The notes under the pieces: generated by a model
What the model was told of the DNA's origin: nothing
Database searches by the model: none
Seen by the model: only the letters and a program-made list of their open reading frames with translations
Assembly (NCBI RefSeq): GCF_007858185.1
Contig: NZ_VFES01000001.1
Coordinates: 310,001 to 374,000 of the forward strand
From: Pseudomonas grimontii
Lineage (GTDB): Bacteria > Pseudomonadota > Gammaproteobacteria > Pseudomonadales > Pseudomonadaceae
Direction: 5' to 3'
DNA: 64,000 bases
Shown: positions 40,862 through 51,608 of the stretch, in pieces
Position numbering within the stretch: position 1 is the stretch's first letter
Layout: each line of letters opens with the position of its first letter
Program-made: the position numbers and the translations under genes

Positions 40862-42116
40862 AACCAAGCGCACGACCGAGTTGGAAGAACTGTTGATCGA
40901 CGCCGAAGCCGACGACGAGGTGGTGCAACACAGCCACCCGATGGTGAGTCGCCCATGGCTGTTGCTGTTGGGCCTGGTCCTGGTGGCGTTGAACCTGCGC
41001 CCGGCGTTGTCGAGCGTGGCGCCGTTGCTGGCCGAGGTTTCCAGCAGCCTGGGGTTGTCGGCGGCCAAGGCCGGTTTGCTGACCACCTTGCCGGTGTTGT
41101 GCCTCGGCTTGTTCGCTCCCATGGCGCCGATCCTGGCCCGGCGTTTTGGCGCCGAGCGCGTGGTGCTGGGGATCCTGTTGACGCTGGCCGCCGGCATCAT
41201 CCTGCGCAGTTCGTTTCGCGAAGTGGGGTTGTTCGCCGGCAGTCTGATTGCCGGTGCGAGCATCGGCATCATCGGCGTATTGCTGCCGGGCATCATCAAG
41301 CGCGATTTCGCCAGACACGCCGGCGCCATGACCGGTGTGTACACCATGGCCCTGTGTCTGGGCGCAGCGTTGGCGGCGGGCGCCACGGTGCCGCTGAGTC
41401 ATTACTTCGGCGACCGCTGGACCATTGGCCTGGGCTTCTGGATTCTGCCGGCGTTGGTGGCAGCGTTGTTCTGGTTACCGCAGGTCGGCCAGAAACACGG
41501 CGCCCATCAGGTCGCCTATCGAGTGAAGGGCCTGTTGCGTGACCCGTTGGCCTGGCAGGTCACCGTGTACATGGGCCTGCAATCGTCCCTGTCGTACATC
41601 GTGTTTGGCTGGCTGCCGTCGATTTTGATCGGTCGTGGCCTGAGCGCGACCGAAGCCGGTTTGGCGTTGTCCGGCTCCATTGTCATGCAATTGTTCAGTT
41701 CCCTGGCCGCACCGTGGCTGGCGACACGCGGTAAGGACCAGCGCCTGGCAATTGTGCTGGTGATGCTGCTGACCCTCGGCGGCCTGTTCGGTTGCCTGTA
41801 TGCACCGCTGGACGGTCTGTGGGGCTGGGCGATTCTGCTTGGCCTGGGGCAGGGCGGTACGTTCAGCCTGGCGCTGACCTTGATCGTGTTGCGCTCGCGC
41901 GACTCCCATGTGGCGGCCAATCTGTCGAGCATGGCCCAGGGCTTTGGTTACACCCTGGCCTCCCTCGGCCCGTTCGCGGTGGGCCTGGTGCACGACTGGA
42001 CCGGCGGCTGGACGGCCATCGGCTGGATCTTCGCGGTGATCGGCGTGGGCGCGATCATCGCCGGCCTGGGGGCCGGGCGTGCGCTGTATGTGCAGGTGAG
42101 CAGCGAGAAACTCTAG
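40851..42116 (+). CDS. MFS transporter, CynX/NimT family
   Basis: This 421-residue protein has 12 predicted helices after a hydrophilic N-terminus of about 35 residues. The first helix continues LVLVALNLRPALSSVAPLL, typical of the cyanate/nitroimidazole (CynX/NimT) family. The overlap with the GntR gene indicates translational coupling. The stop overlaps the 3' end of the DUF1120 pseudogene on the other strand by 4 nt. Substrate unknown. Confidence 0.88.
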   Translation: MSPETKRTTELEELLIDAEADDEVVQHSHPMVSRPWLLLLGLVLVALNLRPALSSVAPLLAEVSSSLGLSAAKAGLLTTLPVLCLGLFAPMAPILARRFGAERVVLGILLTLAAGIILRSSFREVGLFAGSLIAGASIGIIGVLLPGIIKRDFARHAGAMTGVYTMALCLGAALAAGATVPLSHYFGDRWTIGLGFWILPALVAALFWLPQVGQKHGAHQVAYRVKGLLRDPLAWQVTVYMGLQSSLSYIVFGWLPSILIGRGLSATEAGLALSGSIVMQLFSSLAAPWLATRGKDQRLAIVLVMLLTLGGLFGCLYAPLDGLWGWAILLGLGQGGTFSLALTLIVLRSRDSHVAANLSSMAQGFGYTLASLGPFAVGLVHDWTGGWTAIGWIFAVIGVGAIIAGLGAGRALYVQVSSEKL

Positions 42117-42763
42117 AAATACACCACCTCCAGTGTGGCCAGGCCGTCGAGTTGGGTGTCGCTGCTCAGGTCGAGGTTTTGCGCGGCGTTGATCACGGTT
42201 TCAACCTTTACCGTGCTGATCAGCTCACGGATCGCCGAGGGGCCGGCCGTGCTGCCTGGCGTGTCGGTGAAACCCAGGTAGCTGTTGGCGCCGATGTTGA
42301 TCGGGTTGAGGTTGGCGGTACGCCAGGCCAGGCCGCCAGTGGTGGATTCGGTGCCGTACACTTGCGTGGTGCTGTCGACCTGGGTTTGCCGGGGGTCGAA
42401 GGTCATGGAGTACAAGCCGATGCGGTTACCGCTGTTATCAAACCCGAGGCCTTAGTAAATCTCGCTGTTGACGGTCGCCGAGCCTTCACGATTGTCACGC
42501 ATGCGCAGGGCGAAGCGGTTCGGCGCGTTGCAGTCGATGCTGACTTGCAGCAACTTGACCGGCAGGCGTGTGCTTTTGTCCTGGTTGAGATCCTGGCGGG
42601 AAATCTTGCCGTAGTCGATCAGCGCGCCGTTGGACAGCAGCGGGGTGCAAGCCATAGGCGTAATGCGGCCCTTGACCGTCACGTCGACGGCCGAGGCGGC
42701 CTGCGCAACGGGCGTGGCACCGAGCAGCAGCAGGGAGAAAAAGGCGATGTCGTACGGTTTCAT
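42113..42763 (-). pseudogene. DUF1120 fimbrial-subunit-like gene with a premature stop
   Basis: The 217-codon frame is intact from MKPYDIAFF to LEVVYF except for one internal TAA at about 42452-42454 (NSEIY-stop-GLGFDNSGN). In the neighbouring paralogue the same place reads ETAYGLDLDNSGN, so a Tyr codon has become an ochre stop. Before it are a signal peptide and VDVTVKGRITPMACTP; after it are GANSYLGFTD and the C-terminal strand with penultimate Tyr. The last gene of the fimbrial operon, probably non-functional unless the stop is read through. Confidence 0.88.
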
Positions 42764-42781
42764 GAGGTTGATTCCCAGGGG

Positions 42782-43933
42782 TTACAAATAGATGATTTCG
42801 AGTGTGCCGGAGCCGTTGATCCGCACCACGCTGCGCAGGTCCAGGTTCTGTGTCGGGGCCAGGTAGGCTTTGATGCGCACCGTTCCGGCCAGGTTCTGGA
42901 TAGGTACCGGCCCCAGCGTACTGGCGGCGCGGTCGGTGAAACCCATGAGGCTGTTGGCGGCGATGGGGATCTGCCGGGAACTGGAGCTGCTCCAGGCGGC
43001 ACCGCCACTGGTGGAATCGGTGCGATACAGTGTGCCGAGGGCGTCGGCGCTGAACTCCGCCGGGTCGATGTTCACGTAGTAGCGCCCGATCTTGTTCCCG
43101 CTGTTGTCCAGGTCCAGGCCGTAGGCGGTTTCATCGGTGCCGCCGGTGGCCGAACCGTTGCGGTTGTCATGCATCTTCAAGGCGAATGGGGTAGCAGCGT
43201 CGCAGCTCACCGAAAACTGCAACGTCCGAGTGGGCAGCGGGGTTTCATTGTCAGCGCCCAGATCCTTGGCCAGTAAGGTGCCGTAATCCACCAGCCCGCC
43301 GTTGGACAACTGTGGCACGCAGGCCACGGGGGCGAACTGGGCCAGCAGCGTCAACTCGCGGTACCGATCACTGGGCAGGTTGTAGAGAGTTCCGGACACT
43401 TCCCAGGTGGTTGCCTCCCTGACCCGCGTGGCGGCGGAATCGGCCCAGGCGCTGACGCTCAATTGCAGTGTGAAGTGCTTGCCCGTCAGCAGCGTGCCGT
43501 TCTCGACCGGAGCAATCCCATGGCCCGGTCGCCAGTCCAGCGTGGTACCGGTGACGATGGGCGGCTGACCGCTGGCGGGCAACAGCCCCAAGGTCACCGC
43601 CTGGCCATCCAGTACACCGTCGCTGGCGTGAATGGCATAGCTGCCATGCTCGGTAAACTGCAGCCGCTGCGCACTCGCCGCCACGGCGCGATAAAACAGG
43701 CTCGGGTCGCTGGGGTTCGGGCAGTTGAACGTTAGGCTCAGGCGGCGTTCGCCGAGTAAGCGTTGCGCGGCGGCGTCGTTTTGCGCGGCGCGGTTCATCG
43801 AGCCGAAATCCAGCCGTGAGTCGCTGACGTTCAACTGGCATTCATCCTGGGCCTGGGCAGCACTGAACGCACCCAGTAGCACGCAGGCAGCGCTCAGCCG
43901 TCGCGCGTGGGGGGCAAGCAATAGGGCAGTCAT
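42782..43933 (-). CDS. Two-domain DUF1120 protein, candidate tip adhesin of the fimbria
   Basis: This 383-residue protein has a signal peptide ending SAAQAQDE, an N-terminal domain of about 170 residues with two Cys (DECQLNVSD and TFNCPNPSD), and a C-terminal DUF1120 domain (from about 195: APVACVPQLSNGGLVDYGTL) ending LEIIYL. A lectin-like domain in front of a pilin domain is the layout of tip adhesins in chaperone-usher fimbriae. It lies directly after the usher gene, a usual adhesin position. The receptor is unknown and the N-domain fold is inferred. Confidence 0.75.
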   Translation of the reverse strand: MTALLLAPHARRLSAACVLLGAFSAAQAQDECQLNVSDSRLDFGSMNRAAQNDAAAQRLLGERRLSLTFNCPNPSDPSLFYRAVAASAQRLQFTEHGSYAIHASDGVLDGQAVTLGLLPASGQPPIVTGTTLDWRPGHGIAPVENGTLLTGKHFTLQLSVSAWADSAATRVREATTWEVSGTLYNLPSDRYRELTLLAQFAPVACVPQLSNGGLVDYGTLLAKDLGADNETPLPTRTLQFSVSCDAATPFALKMHDNRNGSATGGTDETAYGLDLDNSGNKIGRYYVNIDPAEFSADALGTLYRTDSTSGGAAWSSSSSRQIPIAANSLMGFTDRAASTLGPVPIQNLAGTVRIKAYLAPTQNLDLRSVVRINGSGTLEIIYL

Positions 43934-43942
43934 CGAGCATCC

Positions 43943-46384
43943 TCAAGGTGTATGGCAACGGGCCGGGGCGGTTTCGAAATACACCGTCGGATCAGCCTTG
44001 GCCGGTAGTTCATAGCGCAGTTCGCAGCGCCGGCTGTCGGCGGTGCTGACCCACAGCGGCGTGTGCTCCAGCACATTGGGCAGGAACACCTGGCTGCCAT
44101 CCTGGACGAGGGTGACAAACTCGCCCTGCGCGGTGCTCACCATGGCGCCACGGGGCAGCGGCTGATCCTGATCGGTACGCACGGTCAGCAGCAGTCGCCG
44201 GGTGAGCGCCACGCCGAAGTCGACGCGATCCACCGCGCCGCGCCCGGCCGTGATCATCGCCAGGCCATTGTCGATATCGGCATTGCGTGGCAGCGAGCGG
44301 GTCTGGACCTCGACCGGGCTGCGCCCATATGCGTTGACCTGGGGCACCACCGCCTGGCCCTGCCAGTCGGTCCAGACCGGGCCGCTGGGCGTGCTGAGCT
44401 TGATGCCGCCCATGTCGCCCACGGACACCAGGGCAAACGTGTCGCGTACCGGGTAGGGCGACAGGGTGAGGCCACTGCCATGCAGCACCATCGCGCCTCG
44501 GGCCCCGCCCTGATAACTCGAACGTTCGGCGTCGCTGCGGCTGTAGCTCAAGTCCAATTGGCTGTAGCGAGGCAATGCGGAGACGCCCACGGAGGTCTCC
44601 ACCTGCCGGTCACGGGTGTCGTACTCGGCGCTGACCCGATAACCGAGTTGATCGTTGAGCTGTTCGTTCAGCCCCAGCCCGGAGCGATGTTCACCACCCG
44701 AGTTGCGCACCCAGGCGCGTGCCCGACGGTTCTCGCCCAGGGGCAGGCTGAGGTTGAGGTACACGGCGTTATCCTGCTGCTGGCGCCCGCCCATCTGCCA
44801 TTCGGCACTGGCCGACAGCGACACGCCGTTGACGCTGGTGCCCCAGGCGGCCAGCGCGCGGCTGCTGCTGGCGCCGGCAAAATTGCTGGAGCGCGATAGG
44901 CCGGCGCTGAATGCCCCGAGCCACGGGTGCGACCAGCCCAGCGTGGCGCTTTGCTGATCACGATAACGGGAGCCGCGGTAGAGATCGGGTTGTGCTTCGT
45001 AGGTGGCTTCTTCCAGCTCGCGATAGCCCGGCGTGCGCCAGGAGTTGGCGGCGCTGAATGACCACTGTTCACTCAGGCGTTGGGACCATGACAGGTCGGT
45101 CTGCACGCCACGCACCTTATCCCGGCCCTGTGCATCGGAGAGTTGGCTGGCGAGTTGAACCTGGCTGTCCAGGCCGGGTAGCCAGGCCAGGCTCGCACCG
45201 GCGGCGCGGTATTGGTTGGCGGCCAACATGCCGACGCCCACGGACATTTGTGCGTGCACAGCACCGTTCCAGCCCGCGCTGACCACCCACGGATCGTCAC
45301 CCTCGGCGTTGCCGATATTGCGCACGCGCCCGGCTGCCACCGAGTAACCCGCTGCGGGCAGTCCCAGGCCGAGCATGGCCGCGGGGACGGTAAAGCGCCG
45401 CTCGCCGCCGGTGCTTTCCCTGACGGTCACTTCGACGTCCGAGCGGGTGTTCAAGCGTCGCACATCGGTCAGGGCGAACGGGCCGGCAGGCACCACCGTC
45501 GAGTGAATCAACGCACCGTTCTGCCGCACCTCGACCTGTGCCGGGCTGTTGGCGATGCCCTCGATGGTCGCGCCTTGCTCCTGGTCTTGCAGGGCTTGCT
45601 CGGTGAACACTTGGACGCCATTGATCTGCGCACCCGGCAGCACTGGGTTGTAGAGGCTGACCTGCCCGGCTTGCAGCACCGCCTGATAGCGCGCAAAGGT
45701 GCGCTGGGCATAGGCCTCCAGATGCGTGCTGCGTGACATGCCGTCCTGCCAGGTCTGTACCTGGCGGCTGCGCACGATCCAGTCGCCGGCATTGAAGCCG
45801 ACCTCGGTATTGGCCGAGCCGAAACGGCTGGCGTCATCGCCGAACCGGTTGTAGAACCCGCTGAGGTCATAGTTGAGCAAGGCTGCGACACCGCCGGCTT
45901 GATAGCCCGAGACATCCTGTTGTACCGGACGCAAGGCTTCGGTGGGCACCACCAGCGATACGGTGAGGGTGGCTGGATCGGCTTCCACCAGGCTTTGTGG
46001 GAATTGGGCCAAAAAGTCATGGCAACGCCCGCTGTCTGCCGGGATCACGAGGTGGGTGGCGTCCAGCAAGGCGCGGTCAAAACACAAGACGCCTTGCTGG
46101 TCGAAACTGACGTCCAGGCGACCCCGGCGTTGCCCGTTCACCTGCACGCTCACGGCGTGCTTGCCGGCACTGAAGCGTGGGGTGTCCAGCAGCAGGCTGG
46201 CCAGTTGCGGATCGATGCCGCGCTGGTTCAGGGTCTTGGCGTCAAAGCCCGAATATTCATCGGCCCAGGCCCCCTCAGGGAGCAGGGCACAGGTTAACAG
46301 CCACGCAGGTAAAGCAAGCTGGGCGGGGGCGGCGGGCACGGCTTTGCCGTCACGGTAATTCACGACTGTTTTCACCAAAGGCAA
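43943..46384 (-). CDS. Fimbrial outer-membrane usher protein
   Basis: This protein of about 813 residues is in the FimD/PapC family. It has the usher N-terminal domain (FDAKTLNQRGIDPQLASLLL), the barrel with the conserved segment PAGPFALTDVRRLNTRSDVE around the plug, and C-terminal domains. The start is uncertain: the longest frame begins with TTG at 46384, and a GTG lies at 46375. No ribosome-binding site is convincing for either. A hydrophobic segment LALPAWLLTCALLPEGAWA serves as signal peptide. It assembles subunits delivered by the chaperone at 46444-47139. Confidence 0.9.
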   Translation of the reverse strand: MPLVKTVVNYRDGKAVPAAPAQLALPAWLLTCALLPEGAWADEYSGFDAKTLNQRGIDPQLASLLLDTPRFSAGKHAVSVQVNGQRRGRLDVSFDQQGVLCFDRALLDATHLVIPADSGRCHDFLAQFPQSLVEADPATLTVSLVVPTEALRPVQQDVSGYQAGGVAALLNYDLSGFYNRFGDDASRFGSANTEVGFNAGDWIVRSRQVQTWQDGMSRSTHLEAYAQRTFARYQAVLQAGQVSLYNPVLPGAQINGVQVFTEQALQDQEQGATIEGIANSPAQVEVRQNGALIHSTVVPAGPFALTDVRRLNTRSDVEVTVRESTGGERRFTVPAAMLGLGLPAAGYSVAAGRVRNIGNAEGDDPWVVSAGWNGAVHAQMSVGVGMLAANQYRAAGASLAWLPGLDSQVQLASQLSDAQGRDKVRGVQTDLSWSQRLSEQWSFSAANSWRTPGYRELEEATYEAQPDLYRGSRYRDQQSATLGWSHPWLGAFSAGLSRSSNFAGASSSRALAAWGTSVNGVSLSASAEWQMGGRQQQDNAVYLNLSLPLGENRRARAWVRNSGGEHRSGLGLNEQLNDQLGYRVSAEYDTRDRQVETSVGVSALPRYSQLDLSYSRSDAERSSYQGGARGAMVLHGSGLTLSPYPVRDTFALVSVGDMGGIKLSTPSGPVWTDWQGQAVVPQVNAYGRSPVEVQTRSLPRNADIDNGLAMITAGRGAVDRVDFGVALTRRLLLTVRTDQDQPLPRGAMVSTAQGEFVTLVQDGSQVFLPNVLEHTPLWVSTADSRRCELRYELPAKADPTVYFETAPARCHTP

Positions 46385-46443
46385 TCAAATGTTCGACGGC
46401 TGCGCGTCGCGGTGGCGGTCGTCAAGCCGTCACTTCGTTTTAG

Positions 46444-47139
46444 TCAGGGGCGGGCGATCGGCGCATCGTAGGCCGCTACGGCGAAGCCATAGAGGGTGGC
46501 CGGTTGCAGGCGCACGGTGCTGGCGCCTGTGGCGCTTGCCGGTATACGCAAGCGTTCGCCCGGTAATACATAGGTGCGCGGCAACATCGCCTTGCCATCC
46601 CCGGGCAGCAGGCGCAGTTCCTGGGCCAGCCGCACCACGTAAGGTGTGTCATTAGTGACCAGCAACTCGTGGTTGTCGAACGCCCAGGTCAATCCGGTCC
46701 AGGGGCTGCGATTGGTCGCCAGGCCTTTGGGATGAATGATCACTGGCAAGTTCTGGCGCACGGTCACACCGACACGGGCATGCCCGGCTTCGGCGGCCGG
46801 GCGACCCTTGGGCATGCCTTCGAAAATCACGCGTTTGAGCCGCTGGCTCTTGAGCGGCAAATGATCCTGCAGGATGAAGCGCACCAGTTGCGATTTTCCC
46901 GACTCCACCCGCGACAACGGCGGGGTGACGACCAGCAGCGGTTCGTTGTCCTCCGGGATATCCTCCAGGGTGACATGCAGCAAGGCCAGTTGACTGTCGG
47001 TGTTGGTCACCGAAACGCTGGCTTCGCCGTCGTTTTCGTACACGATCACCACGGAGGTATCCGGGACCATGCCATCGGCCTGAGCGTTCATGCTGAGCAG
47101 GAGTGTCAGGGCCGCGATGTTCAAAAGTTGCGTCGTCAT
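46444..47139 (-). CDS. Periplasmic fimbrial chaperone (PapD-like)
   Basis: This 231-residue protein has a signal peptide ending SMNAQADG and an Ig-like first domain with the chaperone pattern VIVYENDGEASVSVTNTDSQ, LVVTPPLSRVESGKSQLVRF and VIIHPKGLA. Chaperones of this type donate a strand to subunits. It lies between the four DUF1120 subunit genes and the usher. Normal length for the family. Confidence 0.9.
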   Translation of the reverse strand: MTTQLLNIAALTLLLSMNAQADGMVPDTSVVIVYENDGEASVSVTNTDSQLALLHVTLEDIPEDNEPLLVVTPPLSRVESGKSQLVRFILQDHLPLKSQRLKRVIFEGMPKGRPAAEAGHARVGVTVRQNLPVIIHPKGLATNRSPWTGLTWAFDNHELLVTNDTPYVVRLAQELRLLPGDGKAMLPRTYVLPGERLRIPASATGASTVRLQPATLYGFAVAAYDAPIARP

Positions 47140-47167
47140 GACGAGAGTTCCATGGGCAGGATAAGAA

Positions 47168-47791
47168 TCAGAGGTAGCGCAAATCCAGAACGATGGACCC
47201 GTCCAGGGGGACCTCTTGATCCAGGGTCAGGTAGTTGGAAAAGTTGATGGCTGTTTCGATTTGAAGTTGGGTGGTCAACTGGCGGATGAAGTCCGGCTGA
47301 CGGTCACCAGGCAATGCAAAACCTGCATAGGCTTTGGGCTTGGCATCCGGCTGTGCTGTCCAGGTTTCGCCGTTGTCGCTGGACATCAGCACCTGCATGG
47401 GCTGTGCATCGCCCACGGGGTTTTGATACGACAGCGCCACGCTGCCCAGACGTTCTTCGGGGGCGTGGATATTTCGTCCCAGCCCGTATAAACCGGGCGT
47501 CAGCGCAGACTCCGAACGATTGTCGATACCCACCAGCGCAAACAGCATGGGCCTGGCGCATTGCACGGACAGCTCCAGCAACAGGCTGGGCAGTGCGGTG
47601 AACTCATCACTGTTCAGGGCATGCGCGGGAATCTTGCCGTGATCGACGATGCCTTCTTCCGACAGTTCGACGTGGCAAGCATCCGGGGTCAATCGGCCGG
47701 TCACGGTGATGTCGACGATACTGGCCGTCCAAGCCGGGGTGGCGAAGGTTAGAGCAAGCAGGGTGGCGAAGAGCTTGGGGTGCGGGTTCAT
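47168..47791 (-). CDS. DUF1120 fimbrial subunit-like protein, copy 4
   Basis: This 207-residue protein has a signal peptide (ending TPAWTASI), an N-terminal strand VDITVTGRLTPDACHVELSE, a Cys pair (DAC and VQCARP) and a C-terminal strand VLDLRYL with penultimate Tyr. These are pilin features suited to donor-strand exchange. It is the most diverged of the four upstream copies and lies next to the chaperone gene. Confidence 0.82.
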   Translation of the reverse strand: MNPHPKLFATLLALTFATPAWTASIVDITVTGRLTPDACHVELSEEGIVDHGKIPAHALNSDEFTALPSLLLELSVQCARPMLFALVGIDNRSESALTPGLYGLGRNIHAPEERLGSVALSYQNPVGDAQPMQVLMSSDNGETWTAQPDAKPKAYAGFALPGDRQPDFIRQLTTQLQIETAINFSNYLTLDQEVPLDGSIVLDLRYL

Positions 47792-47872
47792 GGCGGATCA
47801 CTGGCTGGGCGGAAGGTGGCCGACACGTCAGCGAGGCCATGCCGGAAAATTGCCTGGCATGGCCTCACAGGA

Positions 47873-48493
47873 TTACAGGTACTTCACTTCCAGGGTGGCC
47901 GACCCATCCAGGGTGACCTCGTTGCTCAGATCCAGGCCGTCCGTGCGGGCGATCGAGGTGTCTACCACCATCTGCGCGACCAACTCCTTGACGGGCAGCG
48001 GCTGGGTGCCGTTGCTGGTGTCGGCGACCGACATATACAGCTTTGGCTCCCAGAATTTTTCGTCATACCAGGTGTTGCCACCGTCCCCCGAGGCGATGGT
48101 TTTCACCTGCACGCCATCGGCGACGGCGTTTTGCAACATCAGCTGGAACCAGCCGAGCTTTTGCGTGCCGTTGATGAAGCCCAGGCCGAAGTGCGAACTT
48201 GTCAGCGCGGAGTCCGCGCGGTTATCGATCGAGTTCAAGGCGAACGGGATTGCGCCATCACAGATCACCGCAATGGTCATGGTGTGGGTGCCGATGAGGG
48301 TCGGGTTGTCCGGGCGCAGGTCCTTGGCGGAAATCTTGCCGTGATCGATGATGCCACCGCTGGACAGGCTGGGGGTGCAGGCGCTGGGGACGATCAGGCC
48401 CTTGACCGCCAGGTCCACGGTGGAGGCGGCGTAGGAGGTGGCGCAGGTAAGTAGCATTACGCTGGCGGCGACGCTATTGAGCAGGGTTTTCAT
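47873..48493 (-). CDS. DUF1120 fimbrial subunit-like protein, copy 3
   Basis: This 206-residue protein has the signal peptide MKTLLNSVAASVMLLTCA, the motif VDLAVKGLIVPSACTPSLSS, GGIIDHGKISAKDLRPDNPT, a second Cys in VICDGA and the C-terminus ATLEVKYL. It is close to copy 1 (49176-49793), with the shared phrase GLGFINGTQKLGWF / GLGFVNGDKKLGWF, indicating tandem duplication. Confidence 0.83.
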   Translation of the reverse strand: MKTLLNSVAASVMLLTCATSYAASTVDLAVKGLIVPSACTPSLSSGGIIDHGKISAKDLRPDNPTLIGTHTMTIAVICDGAIPFALNSIDNRADSALTSSHFGLGFINGTQKLGWFQLMLQNAVADGVQVKTIASGDGGNTWYDEKFWEPKLYMSVADTSNGTQPLPVKELVAQMVVDTSIARTDGLDLSNEVTLDGSATLEVKYL

Positions 48494-48525
48494 GACGGAC
48501 GAACTCCTTTCGCTAAGGGGGGCGG

Positions 48526-49140
48526 TTACAGGTACTTGAGTTGGACGGTGGCGTGCCCGTCGATGGGGACTTCATCCAACAGGGTCAATTGGTCGGCGGG
48601 GGCGATGTGGGTGTACAGGCGAATCTCGGCGTCAAAATCCTGCACGGCGATAGGTGTTTCTTGATTGATTCTCGCAACCGTGGTCAGCCACAGATGGTTC
48701 AACTCGTTGGCGGGCCTCCAGGTCACGCCGCCATCCACTGAGGTAATCATGCGTACCGCGACGCCGTCGGCCACTGGGGTGTAGAGGTGAAACGCGGAGC
48801 CGCCGAGCTTTTCATCGTTCGGCGTCATGCCCAGGCCATGCCAGCGATCGTGGTTGGCCGAAGTACCGGCGCGGTTATCAATGGTGCTGAGGGTGAAAAA
48901 GGTCGGCGCTTCACAGCGCACGCTCAACTGCATGCTCTGATTGGGCAACGAAGTGTGTTGCTCGGCATTGAGCGACTTGGCCGACATCTTTCCGAAGTCG
49001 ACCATGCCACCGCCGGAAATCAGTGGGGAACAGGCGCTGGGCGTGATGCTGCCCCTGACGGACAGGTCGGTGTTGCTGGCGGCGAACGCCGGAGGGGCGA
49101 GCAATAGGGTGAGCATGAGGCGAGAGGCGAAAGCGTTCAT
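48526..49140 (-). CDS. DUF1120 fimbrial subunit-like protein, copy 2
   Basis: The protein is about 204 residues from the ATG at 49140 (MNAFASRLML); a TTG two codons upstream is possible. A signal peptide ends PPAFAASN. It has TDLSVRGSITPSACSPLISG, GGMVDFGKMSAKSL, a Cys in VRCEAPT, and ends ATVQLKYL. Its body is less similar to copies 1 and 3 than these are to each other. Confidence 0.83.
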   Translation of the reverse strand: MNAFASRLMLTLLLAPPAFAASNTDLSVRGSITPSACSPLISGGGMVDFGKMSAKSLNAEQHTSLPNQSMQLSVRCEAPTFFTLSTIDNRAGTSANHDRWHGLGMTPNDEKLGGSAFHLYTPVADGVAVRMITSVDGGVTWRPANELNHLWLTTVARINQETPIAVQDFDAEIRLYTHIAPADQLTLLDEVPIDGHATVQLKYL

Positions 49141-49175
49141 GGGCAAGGGCCTTTGGTCACAGTGATCGGGGGGCG

Positions 49176-49793
49176 TTACAGGTACTTCACTTCAATCGTG
49201 GCCGAGCCATCGATCGGCACTTCCTGGCTCAAGTCCATTCCGTTAGTGGCAAAAATGCCGCTTGCGACTTCCAGTTCCACGGCCAGTTCACGGGCAGCAA
49301 TGGGGGTATTGGTGTCCGAAAGGTCACTCATCGCAAACAGTGCAAGGGGTTCCAAGTTGTCTTCCGGCTGCCAGGTGCTGCCGTTGTCGTAGGAAACAAT
49401 CGAGCGGGCGGGTAGGCCGTCCATCATGGGATTGTTGAGGTACAGGTAAAACCACCCCAGCTTCTTGTCACCGTTGACAAAACCCAGTCCGTAATTACTC
49501 GTGAGGCCGCTGCTGGCGCGATTGTCGATACCCCTTAGGCCAAACAGGGTTGGCGCCTCACAGCTCACGTTCATCCGCAGGAAATGTTTGGGCAGGGACG
49601 TGGGATTGTCCGGCTTGAGGTCTTTGGCCGAGATCTTTCCATGGTCGACAACACCTGCGCCGGACAAGGTCGGTGCGCAGGCACTGGGGGTGATCAAGCC
49701 TTTGACGGCCAGGTCTATCGAACTTGCGGCTTGGACGGGTGAGAACATGTTGAGTAACAGGGCGGTGCTCAACAGGGTCAGGGACTTACTCAT
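49176..49793 (-). CDS. DUF1120 fimbrial subunit-like protein, copy 1 (first gene of operon)
   Basis: The protein is about 205 residues from the ATG at 49793 (MSKSLTLLSTALLLNMFSPV, a good signal peptide); the upstream GTG at 49808 is less likely. It has IDLAVKGLITPSACAPTLSG, GAGVVDHGKISAKDLKPDNP and a second Cys in VSCEAPT, and ends ATIEVKYL. The first gene after the 450-nt divergent region, so it may be the major subunit. Confidence 0.84.
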   Translation of the reverse strand: MSKSLTLLSTALLLNMFSPVQAASSIDLAVKGLITPSACAPTLSGAGVVDHGKISAKDLKPDNPTSLPKHFLRMNVSCEAPTLFGLRGIDNRASSGLTSNYGLGFVNGDKKLGWFYLYLNNPMMDGLPARSIVSYDNGSTWQPEDNLEPLALFAMSDLSDTNTPIAARELAVELEVASGIFATNGMDLSQEVPIDGSATIEVKYL

Positions 49794-50243
49794 TTCAATG
49801 CATTCCACTGTAAGGCTGGCTGATACGGCGCGCGCACGGCATCGTCCTATCTTTAGGGATAGGCGCAGAGCAGAGCGGCCGGTTGTATTTGGTTGGGAGC
49901 GCCGCAGGCTGCGCGTCCATTCCCTCTTTGCGGGGTGGGGGGCAATTTAGCCGGGGTATGGAGTGGGGGAAATACAACTATTACGACAATGAAAGTGACA
50001 GGTACTTGGGCGTTGATGCGTGGGAATAGATGGTCTTATTTGTAGGAAAGTTGGTTTTTTCGTAGTTGTTGTATCGTCATCTTCGTATCCAGAAAGTTAT
50101 CTACTGTTGCTTATAGCAGCCATGTGAGTGCCATGAAGATGTTCACGCCGTTATGTATTTGGTTGTTGCATCCTCTGCATCCACTCAAGTGAGTATGGGT
50201 GAACTCATGGTCTGCATATCAATGTAAGCGCAATGAGGTGACC
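49794..50243. other. Divergent regulatory region between the DUF1120 fimbria and the Hpt/RcsB genes
   Basis: About 450 nt with no gene. The part at 49980-50200 is clearly richer in A and T than the flanks, as expected for a regulated promoter or nucleoid-protein target. No consensus operator stands out by eye. Confidence 0.6.
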
Positions 50244-50669
50244 ATGGTGACAAGGGTATTTACCAAGCCAGTACCTGTCCTGAAGTTGGCACCCTCGCTC
50301 TCACCACCGCGGGTGGCGGAGCAGGCTTTTCGTCCGCGTGGGGATGGGTGGCCGACGCGTGCCAGCCTGATCGAAATGTTTGGCAGTGATGAGGTGGTGA
50401 GCCGGGTGCTGGTCAGCCTCATGAACGAAGCACGGGAAGACGATGTCTTGCTGGACCAGGCTCGGCTCAGTGCCAATGCGTTGTTGGTGATGGAGCGGCT
50501 GCACCGTCTGGTGGGTAGCCTGGCGTTTGTCGGTATGGCCGATCTGGAGCGTTGCGGCGAGCAGCTGATTGCTCGCGTCCAAGCCGCGGGCGTAGAGGAA
50601 AATACGCTGGAGTTGCAGGCATTTCAGCGCAAGTTACGTGTGTACATCACTTATTTGAGCCGCTTGTAA
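50244..50669 (+). CDS. Hpt-like domain protein
   Basis: The protein is about 141 residues from the ATG at 50244 (GAGGTG close upstream); a longer frame begins at 50199. The C-terminal helical domain has MERLHRLVGSLAFVGMADLE followed by RCGEQL. This resembles the phosphoacceptor loop HxLKGSA...G...L...C..LE of histidine phosphotransfer (Hpt) domains, with H87 as candidate His (H-R-L-V-G-S). The normal Lys after Leu is Val. The N-terminal 40 residues are basic and Pro-rich. It is followed after about 200 nt by a response regulator, which strengthens the idea of a phosphorelay pair. Confidence 0.6.
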   Translation: MVTRVFTKPVPVLKLAPSLSPPRVAEQAFRPRGDGWPTRASLIEMFGSDEVVSRVLVSLMNEAREDDVLLDQARLSANALLVMERLHRLVGSLAFVGMADLERCGEQLIARVQAAGVEENTLELQAFQRKLRVYITYLSRL

Positions 50670-50875
50670 ATCGTTGGATTAGAGAAGTTTGTAGGACATC
50701 ATTCCCGCGTGCCTGAGGTTTTTTGTGTAGGGCATTTCTTTTTATATTGTGGGACGGAGGTTGTCGTCTACCAAATGCTGGACGCGGTTCGTTAGGTGCC
50801 GCGTCGGGTGGTTGTTGAGGGCCGTGGACAGCGGTATTTTGCGCCAATTCCAATTGCCATCTTTCGTGGGTATCT

Positions 50876-51511
50876 ATGTTTCGTGTGATTATTGCCGACG
50901 ACCATCCGATTGTGCGTATCGGGCAGCGGGTGGTGATTGAGGCGGGCGGCAGGTGCAAAGTCGTCGGCGAAGCCGATGGTCCCGATGAGTTGCTCGCGTT
51001 ATTGAGTACCGTGGCCTGTGATGTGTTGGTGACTGACTTCGCCATGCCGGGCGGTCAGCAGGCCGACGGCTACGGGTTGCTGGGCCTGTTGCGTCGCCAG
51101 TACCCGACATTGCCGGTGATCCTGGTCACCATGTTTGCCAACGTGGCAACCCTACGCGCTTCGTTTGCCCATGGCGCACGGGCTATTGTCGCCAAGAGCG
51201 CATCGGCCCGCGAACTGCCCATTGCAATCAATGCGGTGATCAAGGGCGAGACGTTTGCCAGTGAGTGCCTGCGGGCTCAGTTGACAGAGGCCGGGACCGG
51301 CGACCAGCTGCAACAGCCCCAGCTCTCCAGCAAGGAGCGCGAAGTCGTCAGGATGCTCGCCAGCGGCATGACCGTCAGCCAGATTGCAGCACGGGTCAAC
51401 CGCAGTATTTCCACGATCAGCAAACAGAAAAGCACGGCCATGAGCCGGCTGTGCATTTCCACCGACGTTGACCTGTTCGCCTACGCGCGCAGCTGCGGCA
51501 TGGTGCCATAG
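50876..51511 (+). CDS. RcsB-like response regulator (REC + LuxR HTH)
   Basis: This 211-residue protein has a receiver domain with acidic pocket D8/D9, phosphoacceptor D54 (VTDFAMPGG), T85 and K107, and a LuxR/FixJ HTH at about 148-205 (LSSKEREVVRMLASGMTVSQ). The HTH end ISTISKQKSTAMSRLCISTD and the REC loop TDFAMPGG..ADGYGLL match RcsB more closely than NarL. RcsB relatives (with RcsC/PvrR) control cupD fimbriae in P. aeruginosa. Here it is next to a chaperone-usher locus. No sensor kinase lies in the window. Confidence 0.88.
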   Translation: MFRVIIADDHPIVRIGQRVVIEAGGRCKVVGEADGPDELLALLSTVACDVLVTDFAMPGGQQADGYGLLGLLRRQYPTLPVILVTMFANVATLRASFAHGARAIVAKSASARELPIAINAVIKGETFASECLRAQLTEAGTGDQLQQPQLSSKEREVVRMLASGMTVSQIAARVNRSISTISKQKSTAMSRLCISTDVDLFAYARSCGMVP

Positions 51512-51608
51512 CAGTTGGCGGGCCATTCCCCGCGTAAATGGCGATAGAGTTTTACCGGTGCGCAGACTATCTTGGACGGCTCATAACCCCCTGGTTTGGA
51601 ACCTGCCC

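Follow-up and report, generated by a model that had tools for sequence, protein, structure and literature searches.

In a 64,000-nucleotide stretch of the Pseudomonas grimontii genome (contig NZ_VFES01000001.1, positions 310,001 to 374,000; hereafter the window), part of a 7.04-Mb draft genome, a minus-strand chaperone-usher operon with several genes for DUF1120 proteins lies divergent to genes for a histidine phosphotransfer (Hpt) protein and an RcsB-like response regulator (RR). We think it likely that this locus encodes a phosphorelay-switched beta-fimbria, in which the relay, acting through the RR and a 15-base-pair (bp) promoter box, would activate both the pilins and the Hpt gene, with DUF1120 proteins as the pilins and a two-domain protein as the tip. 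Comparison among genomes supports control of the operon by the phosphorelay, through strict co-occurrence, divergent synteny and the promoter box, and on this basis we predict it.

Linkage of regulator, promoter box and operon

In a genus sample of 199 Pseudomonas genomes, 42 have an usher orthologue (at least 60% identity) and 42 have the RR at E ≤ 1e-70; these are the same 42 genomes, each with one locus, and the RR was found at this threshold in none of the remaining 157. Usher and RR are found together in all 42 loci, where relatives of the flanking major facilitator superfamily and SnoaL-like genes are present too. Because the arrangement recurs in 42/42 carrier genomes, we take it to be more than chance. 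A second set, drawn from named genomes, comprises 80 loci, and the RR gene is included in 77 (L101, L118 and L157 end at contig ends before it); it shares genomes with the genus sample, and the two sets are not independent. The closest relatives at the fimbria locus are Pseudomonas marginalis PgKB35 and P. sivasensis, which points to the fluorescens group. Ushers of lower identity (36–51%) turn up in further genomes or as a second copy, and among nine such loci that were annotated (L082–L090) only L086 has a receiver-Hpt-like frame and another RR alongside.

The features of the region, which contains six matches to PF06551 (DUF1120) above the cut-off, are as follows, with the pilin operon running from 49808 downward.

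49176..49808, minus strand: DUF1120 pilin 1 of 210 amino acids, opening the operon (PF06551 50.9 bits; AlphaFold2 model with pilin fold)
48526..49146, minus strand: DUF1120 pilin 2 (PF06551 59.1 bits; PF00419 Fimbrial weak at 19.5 bits, under its cut-off)
47873..48493, minus strand: DUF1120 pilin 3 (PF06551 54.7 bits)
47168..47791, minus strand: DUF1120 pilin 4 (PF06551 41.4 bits)
46444..47139, minus strand: periplasmic chaperone, YhcA type (PapD_N 69.3 bits, cut-off 23; NF007392/PRK09918 248 bits, cut-off 183)
43943..46384, minus strand: outer-membrane usher, beta-fimbrial StjB/YhcD type (PF00577 296.8 bits; PRK15304 630.8 bits, cut-off 723)
42782..43933, minus strand: two-domain subunit, the proposed tip, with a PRK15301-like N-domain and a DUF1120 pilin domain (PF06551 in the C-terminal half)
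42113..42763, minus strand: last DUF1120 gene, interrupted by a single in-frame stop, 42452–42454 (PF06551 over the cut-off at 42452–42763)
49972..49986, minus strand: pilin-facing copy of the box, reading TCGTAATAGTTGTAT in the sense direction
49944..49949, minus strand: −10-like hexamer TAAATT, placed 22 bp past the pilin-facing box
50060..50074, plus strand: Hpt-facing copy of the box, reading TCGTAGTTGTTGTAT in the sense direction
50244..50669, plus strand (listed open reading frame from 50199): Hpt phosphotransfer protein, a form of a receiver-Hpt (REC-Hpt) adaptor without its receiver
50812..50840, plus strand: putative RR promoter (TTGTTG, 17 bp, TATTTT), lacking the box
50876..51511, plus strand: RcsB-like RR, receiver and LuxR-type helix-turn-helix (Response_reg 66.8 bits; GerE 34.1 bits)

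All the parts of the fimbrial operon and of the divergent pair that an initial annotation had recognized from the sequence were recovered at the coordinates given there. The operon and the listed Hpt frame are separated by 390 bases. An Rfam scan of the region gave no match at the gathering threshold.

The 15-bp motif came from k-mers common to the intergenic regions and was searched as the exact pattern ATRCAACWAHTACGA or as a regular expression. The exact box is present in 43 of the 199 genomes: 41 carriers out of 42, at the locus, and two of the 157 non-carriers (G097 and G133). As a control, the reversed pattern matched 24 times across the 199 genomes by our count. Both boxes outside the carriers look accidental, that of G097 lying between flavin-reductase-like and ATP-binding cassette (ABC) permease genes and that of G133 (L091 4669–4683) upstream of a gene for an ABC transporter of the type I secretion type. 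Two copies occur in the window, at 49972–49986 and 50060–50074, each directed at its own gene. By regular expression, an intergenic box was found in 74 of the 77 RR-bearing loci: a pilin-facing copy in 45/54 loci with Hpt and 23/23 without, and an Hpt-facing copy in 42/54 and 0/23, respectively. Counting from the box, a TANNNT element follows at exactly 22 bp in 68 of 75 pilin-facing cases, in 8 of 9 cases beyond the RR gene and in 21 of 42 Hpt-facing cases (with seven more at 23 bp). Given this spacing, the box centre would fall near −42, over the −35 region, which is the position of an activator site. No box was found before the RR gene, where the pair TTGTTG and TANNNT, spaced by 17 bp, is kept in 45 of the 54 loci with Hpt.

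Some genomes have an additional pilin gene past the RR gene, on the opposite strand. At loci without Hpt, an exact and correctly oriented box precedes it in 5/5 cases of a first set and 3/3 of a second. At REC-Hpt loci, all eight cases of the first set have boxes with one or two mismatches and a TANNNT at 22 bp, and the 15 cases of the second set comprise five exact boxes, seven with one mismatch, two with two and one with three. Among shuffled stretches, 0.3% reach at most one mismatch, 4% at most two and 26% at most three, so the lone three-mismatch box says little.

The Hpt adaptor and the response regulator

The RR is of the NarL/LuxR type, with Response_reg and GerE above their cut-offs, and its receiver Asp, acidic pair, Thr and Lys are each kept in 78/78 sequences. 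It had been called RcsB-like, which holds in that the RcsB equivalog PRK10840 is its best regulator family, at a score (152.1 bits) below the cut-off of that family (235 bits). The divergent Hpt-like protein does have the Hpt motif and its His; it is best described as a receiver-Hpt protein minus the receiver, and it more likely starts at the ATG at 50244 than at the GTG at 50199.

A search for the Hpt protein matched 32 of the 199 genomes, two of them weakly and within large unrelated frames. Of the 30 left, 27 have a long frame with receiver motifs, and the short form is confined to G000, G138 and G139. The 77 RR-bearing loci comprise 49 with REC-Hpt, five with Hpt only and 23 without Hpt; the receiver in L096 was confirmed by Pfam (75.3 bits). 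The phosphoacceptor His is present in 56/56 rows of the alignment (54 loci, the window and one reference) and the receiver Asp in 50/50 receiver-bearing rows. Since the short form retains the first ~20 residues followed by Hpt, the receiver domain was probably lost in frame. On a tree of Hpt and RR together, the six Hpt-only forms make one clade with 100/100 support; a single origin failed on the tree of usher and RR, where they need three changes. We read this disagreement as one receiver loss followed by recombination of the regulator cassette between fimbrial backgrounds.

Elsewhere in the genome, the next six matches to the receiver-Hpt protein are large frames of 661–1240 amino acids with 32–39% identity, none of which could be named as a partner kinase. 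At L086 (8954–14111), a distant beta-fimbrial operon (41% usher) stands beside a 1219-amino-acid frame with 36% similarity to the receiver-Hpt protein and beside another RR (27%); this frame is a possible source of the REC-Hpt adaptors.

The adaptor could instead work mainly as a brake, with REC-Hpt or Hpt draining phosphate from an RR that is charged by another donor, and with the Hpt-facing box giving negative feedback. We consider this possible but unlikely. The RR seems able to work without Hpt, since 23 of the 77 loci keep RR and box and have no Hpt gene; no kinase gene was recognized at the locus; and of the kinases of the CupD system, RcsC is described as a phosphatase and PvrS as a kinase in PMC3842833. 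A drain would be expected to need the receiver for hydrolysis, however, and the six forms without a receiver (the window and five named loci) keep the Hpt His.

Alternatively, some other regulator might bind the box and the neighbouring RR act elsewhere or indirectly. Upstream of the RR gene (window 50680–50760), an element TGTAGG keeps conserved positions in relatives, and in many loci it also lies near the Hpt-facing box; a second regulator may therefore act there. More than one regulator may thus act at the locus, and the pairing of RR and box is proposed from their position, their co-occurrence and the reuse of the box. Yet the exact box is essentially confined to the locus in the 199 genomes, unlike the site of a global regulator, box and RR occur together, and pilin clusters set apart within the locus have copies of their own, all of which makes another regulator at the box rather doubtful.

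Fimbria class and subunits

The operon ends in a DUF1120 frame broken by the single in-frame stop at 42452–42454, in line with the pseudogene of the initial annotation. Directly after the two-domain gene, 59 of the 80 related loci have an open frame most similar to this broken one and 72 have some open DUF1120 frame, while none was recognized in eight. Readthrough of the stop codon was rejected as an explanation because most relatives have an open frame at this position. A locus decaying in this strain, which has lost its receiver and its terminal subunit and forms no functional fimbria, would account for both the stop and the short Hpt protein; we judge it improbable, slightly more so than a different regulator at the box, in that the remaining genes are open and the Hpt-only form, with its His conserved, is common to six loci in one clade. 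The terminal gene may be dispensable, as the eight loci without a recognized DUF1120 frame there suggest, and its stop may be an assembly error.

By sequence, the operon is a beta-fimbrial one of the Yhc/Stj type, a known class, because its usher, chaperone and DUF1120 subunits match the Yhc/Stj set. DUF1120 subunits define the beta-fimbria clade. The usher falls in the StjB/YhcD group by family scores and pairwise comparison: its best family is PRK15304 (630.8 bits, short of that family's own cut-off of 723; the runner-up family reaches 199.5), and it scores 419 bits against Escherichia coli YhcD and 171 bits against FimD. The chaperone belongs to the YhcA family, passing the PRK09918 cut-off and scoring 161 bits against YhcA and 23.5 bits against FimC. 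The pilins match PRK15302/15303, and the pilin profile matches YhcF (hhalign E 1.1e-20). The fimbria had initially been taken as little described; its DUF1120 pilins stand, and the class as such is already known as the beta-fimbriae (YhcF beside YhcA/YhcD; Stj).

Two systems of this class invite comparison. Yhc of E. coli K-12 (yhcA yhcD yhcE yhcF) shares 32% identity in the usher over 778 aligned columns and 40% in the chaperone, and its DUF1120-annotated yhcF adjoins yhcA and yhcD. It differs in having one DUF1120-annotated gene, a yhcE broken by IS5 and, in the stretch read, no adjoining Hpt or RR gene, whereas the Pseudomonas operon has several pilins, a fused tip and the regulator pair. 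The likeness to Salmonella Stj lies in the usher (nearest PRK15304), the pilins (PRK15302/15303) and the tip N-domain (PRK15301), the NCBIfam families PRK15301–15304 being, we presume, the Stj set. Here the difference is that PRK15301 models a stand-alone protein over 189 positions, whereas its counterpart in the Pseudomonas operon is fused to a DUF1120 pilin. PMC9238391 terms the Stj usher a beta-fimbrial usher, and PMC4654587 describes beta-fimbrial chaperones as anchoring subunits much like non-classical chaperones. The same genome has a second beta-fimbrial operon (contig C13, ~80810–86107; L040 2811–8108), ~38% identical, which has a pair of DUF1120 pilins and a PRK15301-like protein that is not fused, and lacks the regulator pair and an exact box.

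DUF1120 (PF06551) is listed in Pfam as a family of unknown function, it is named by a single paper in the open-access literature searched, and a sequence search gave no relative of solved structure. Structure prediction had been named as the check on the claim that these proteins are pilins, and it returned the chaperone-usher pilin fold. The model of pilin 1, made with AlphaFold2 from the mature chain (49179–49727) aligned with 65 relatives, is confident (predicted local distance difference test (pLDDT) score 92.9; predicted template modelling (pTM) score 0.84). Chaperone-usher pilins rank first in Foldseek (best E 7.6e-4); in VIA-align, FimG comes first (Z 9.5, root-mean-square deviation (rmsd) 3.0, 126 aligned), the best 50 structural matches are all chaperone-usher pilins or adhesins, and Z is at least 8 in 31 of the 996 aligned chains. 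The predicted signal peptide of pilin 1 is followed by an N-terminal extension, ASSIDLAVKGLITPSAC; in the model residues 1–10 have a mean pLDDT of 57 and the first strand begins no earlier than residue 17. This free extension has the conserved motif ASsvDLtVkGlITPsAC (305 sequences). The Cys pair and penultimate Tyr of the initial annotation are borne out in the 323 single-domain pilins kept by a motif and length filter (the rest were discarded): exactly two Cys occur in 323/323 and the penultimate Tyr in 312/323, and the Tyr is found in 80/80 two-domain proteins as well. That the pilins polymerize by donor-strand exchange would fit these features.

That the DUF1120 proteins are other secreted factors merely sharing the locus is very improbable: a PDB sequence search with the pilin and tip profiles gave weak matches and no pilin, and the best Foldseek E is modest, but the modelled pilin fold, the free extension, the Cys pair and the terminal Tyr go together with several copies beside a chaperone and an usher, as E. 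coli YhcF also stands beside its own. The weak PDB matches of the pilin profiles are to sialidases, along an Asp-box-like stretch. Asp-box motifs are typical of sialidases, and an Asp-box-like S.D.G.TW motif is present in 131 of the 323 DUF1120 pilins, for example SYDNGSTW in 49176–49808. Recognized single-domain pilin frames number from 1 to 11 per locus (77 loci; for example L074, L160 and L161); extra pilin clusters carry their own box, and the pilin repertoire seems quick to change.

The two-domain protein resembles a fusion of two pilin-like domains, joined by a linker that is like a donor strand. Its model, from an alignment of 55 sequences (pLDDT 91.0, pTM 0.64), resembles two-domain tip adhesins. 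Over the whole chain, CupB6 is best (Z 10.7, rmsd 5.6, 278 aligned), with matches within 1 Z counting as tied; residues 2–176 match C-terminally extended FimA (6s09; Z 9.7, rmsd 3.8, 137 aligned) and self-complemented FimA (2jty; Z 8.7). The description as a two-domain DUF1120 protein is right for the C-terminal half, which matches PF06551; for the N-domain of the window protein Pfam gives no match, and its relation to pilins appears in profile–profile comparison (E 1.4e-6, probability 90%). In the N-domain alignment, 5 of 27 members weakly match DUF1120 (best E 0.0051). The linker consensus GRsRELtLrArFAPAAC (76 sequences) aligns with the N-terminal extension of the pilins. The N-domain also matches PRK15301, a 189-amino-acid protein, and contig C13 encodes a separate 190-amino-acid form without the pilin half. 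From sequence and model we infer a tip subunit fused to a neighbouring pilin, so that the donor strand would now act in cis. The P. aeruginosa tip adhesin CupB6 (PDB 5cyl), the best whole-chain structural match, is 12% identical, and unlike it the two-domain protein has an N-domain that is itself related to DUF1120 pilins.

A proposed switch and its setting

In the pathway that we propose, an unlinked hybrid kinase would phosphorylate Hpt, by way of the receiver domain in relatives that retain it, and Hpt would hand the phosphate to the RcsB-like RR. Phosphorylated RR would bind the 15-bp box, standing in for a −35 element, and would activate the pilin operon and the Hpt gene, the latter as positive feedback. 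The RR gene lacks the box and probably has its own promoter. The operon would then form a pilus, in which DUF1120 pilins, as incomplete immunoglobulin-fold subunits, would polymerize through their N-terminal donor strand. In the two-domain tip, the segment between the domains, equivalent to the donor strand of the second domain, probably completes the first domain in cis; because its own N-terminus has no donor strand, this protein could only sit first, and we place it first in the fibre.

Several observations weigh against a phosphorelay-switched fimbria of this kind. The Hpt proteins score under the Pfam cut-off of 24.6 bits for PF01627 (17.6 bits in the window, 13.5 bits in L096), and the locus has no recognized kinase gene. 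RR and box are matched by location, and the restriction of the box to carriers reflects shared descent in part, because the box is inherited with the locus. An exact box is absent from G040 and from before the pilin gene past the RR in 8/8 and 10/15 REC-Hpt loci, and the regular expression finds none in L107, L111 and L120. TANNNT is missing at 22 bp from half of the Hpt-facing boxes, and in the Hpt promoter of the window the −10 is poor where one is expected. The TTGTTG pair before the RR gene is weak, being unflagged by the consensus scan and found in 0/23 loci without Hpt, and the consensus sigma70 scan of 41900–51600 gave 0 promoters against 2.2 from shuffles. As for the tip, unrelated immunoglobulin-like proteins likewise reach Z 8 with the N-terminal half, and the donor strand in cis is a proposal from sequence and model.

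Hpt and regulator pairs near fimbriae are already known. In P. aeruginosa, RcsB together with RcsC/PvrS controls cupD, and an RcsB site lies in the cupD1 promoter (PMC3842833). The CupD/RcsCB-PvrSR system of strain PA14 thus resembles the present locus in encoding a phosphorelay and an RcsB-type regulator with a chaperone-usher operon; it differs in that the CupD cluster has full sensor kinases, whereas at the Pseudomonas beta-fimbria locus none was recognized, only REC-Hpt or Hpt. HptC adjoins PA0034, which acts on cupA (PMC11237798), and HptA adjoins cupC (PMC12051241). These systems, HptC-PA0034 with LadS and HptA at cupC (Roc), also place a small Hpt beside a DNA-binding regulator or cup operon, and in the same papers the Hpt is fed by an unlinked hybrid kinase. 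They serve other fimbriae; here the divergent pair is tied to one beta-fimbrial operon and has the receiver-Hpt form in most relatives. In the open-access literature searched, outside which many journals lie, we met neither a link of such a pair to a beta-fimbria nor the receiver-Hpt form nor the box. What is new is the strict co-occurrence of usher and RR, the REC-Hpt origin of the Hpt protein, the 15-bp box and the apparent fusion in the two-domain protein.

Taken jointly, these parts suggest a more specific picture, which we favour with appreciably less confidence than the switch itself. A kinase-less REC-Hpt adaptor and an RcsB-like activator would form the private cassette of one beta-fimbria lineage, the activator recognizing a 15-bp box near −42 that is found almost nowhere else in these genomes. 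Pilin clusters joining the locus would bring their own box, and the adaptor would itself be a target. The tip would be two pilins joined covalently and self-complementing in cis, and one branch would have lost the receiver, after which the shortened cassette spread between fimbrial backgrounds by recombination.

If this is true, the DUF1120 family would be one of pilins with a testable switch, consisting of a defined regulator, a defined box, a predicted distance to the −10 element and a predicted feedback loop, and there would be a route to switching DUF1120 fimbriae on in the laboratory. The locus would also offer a case of a relay that lost a module, the receiver domain, yet retained its output.

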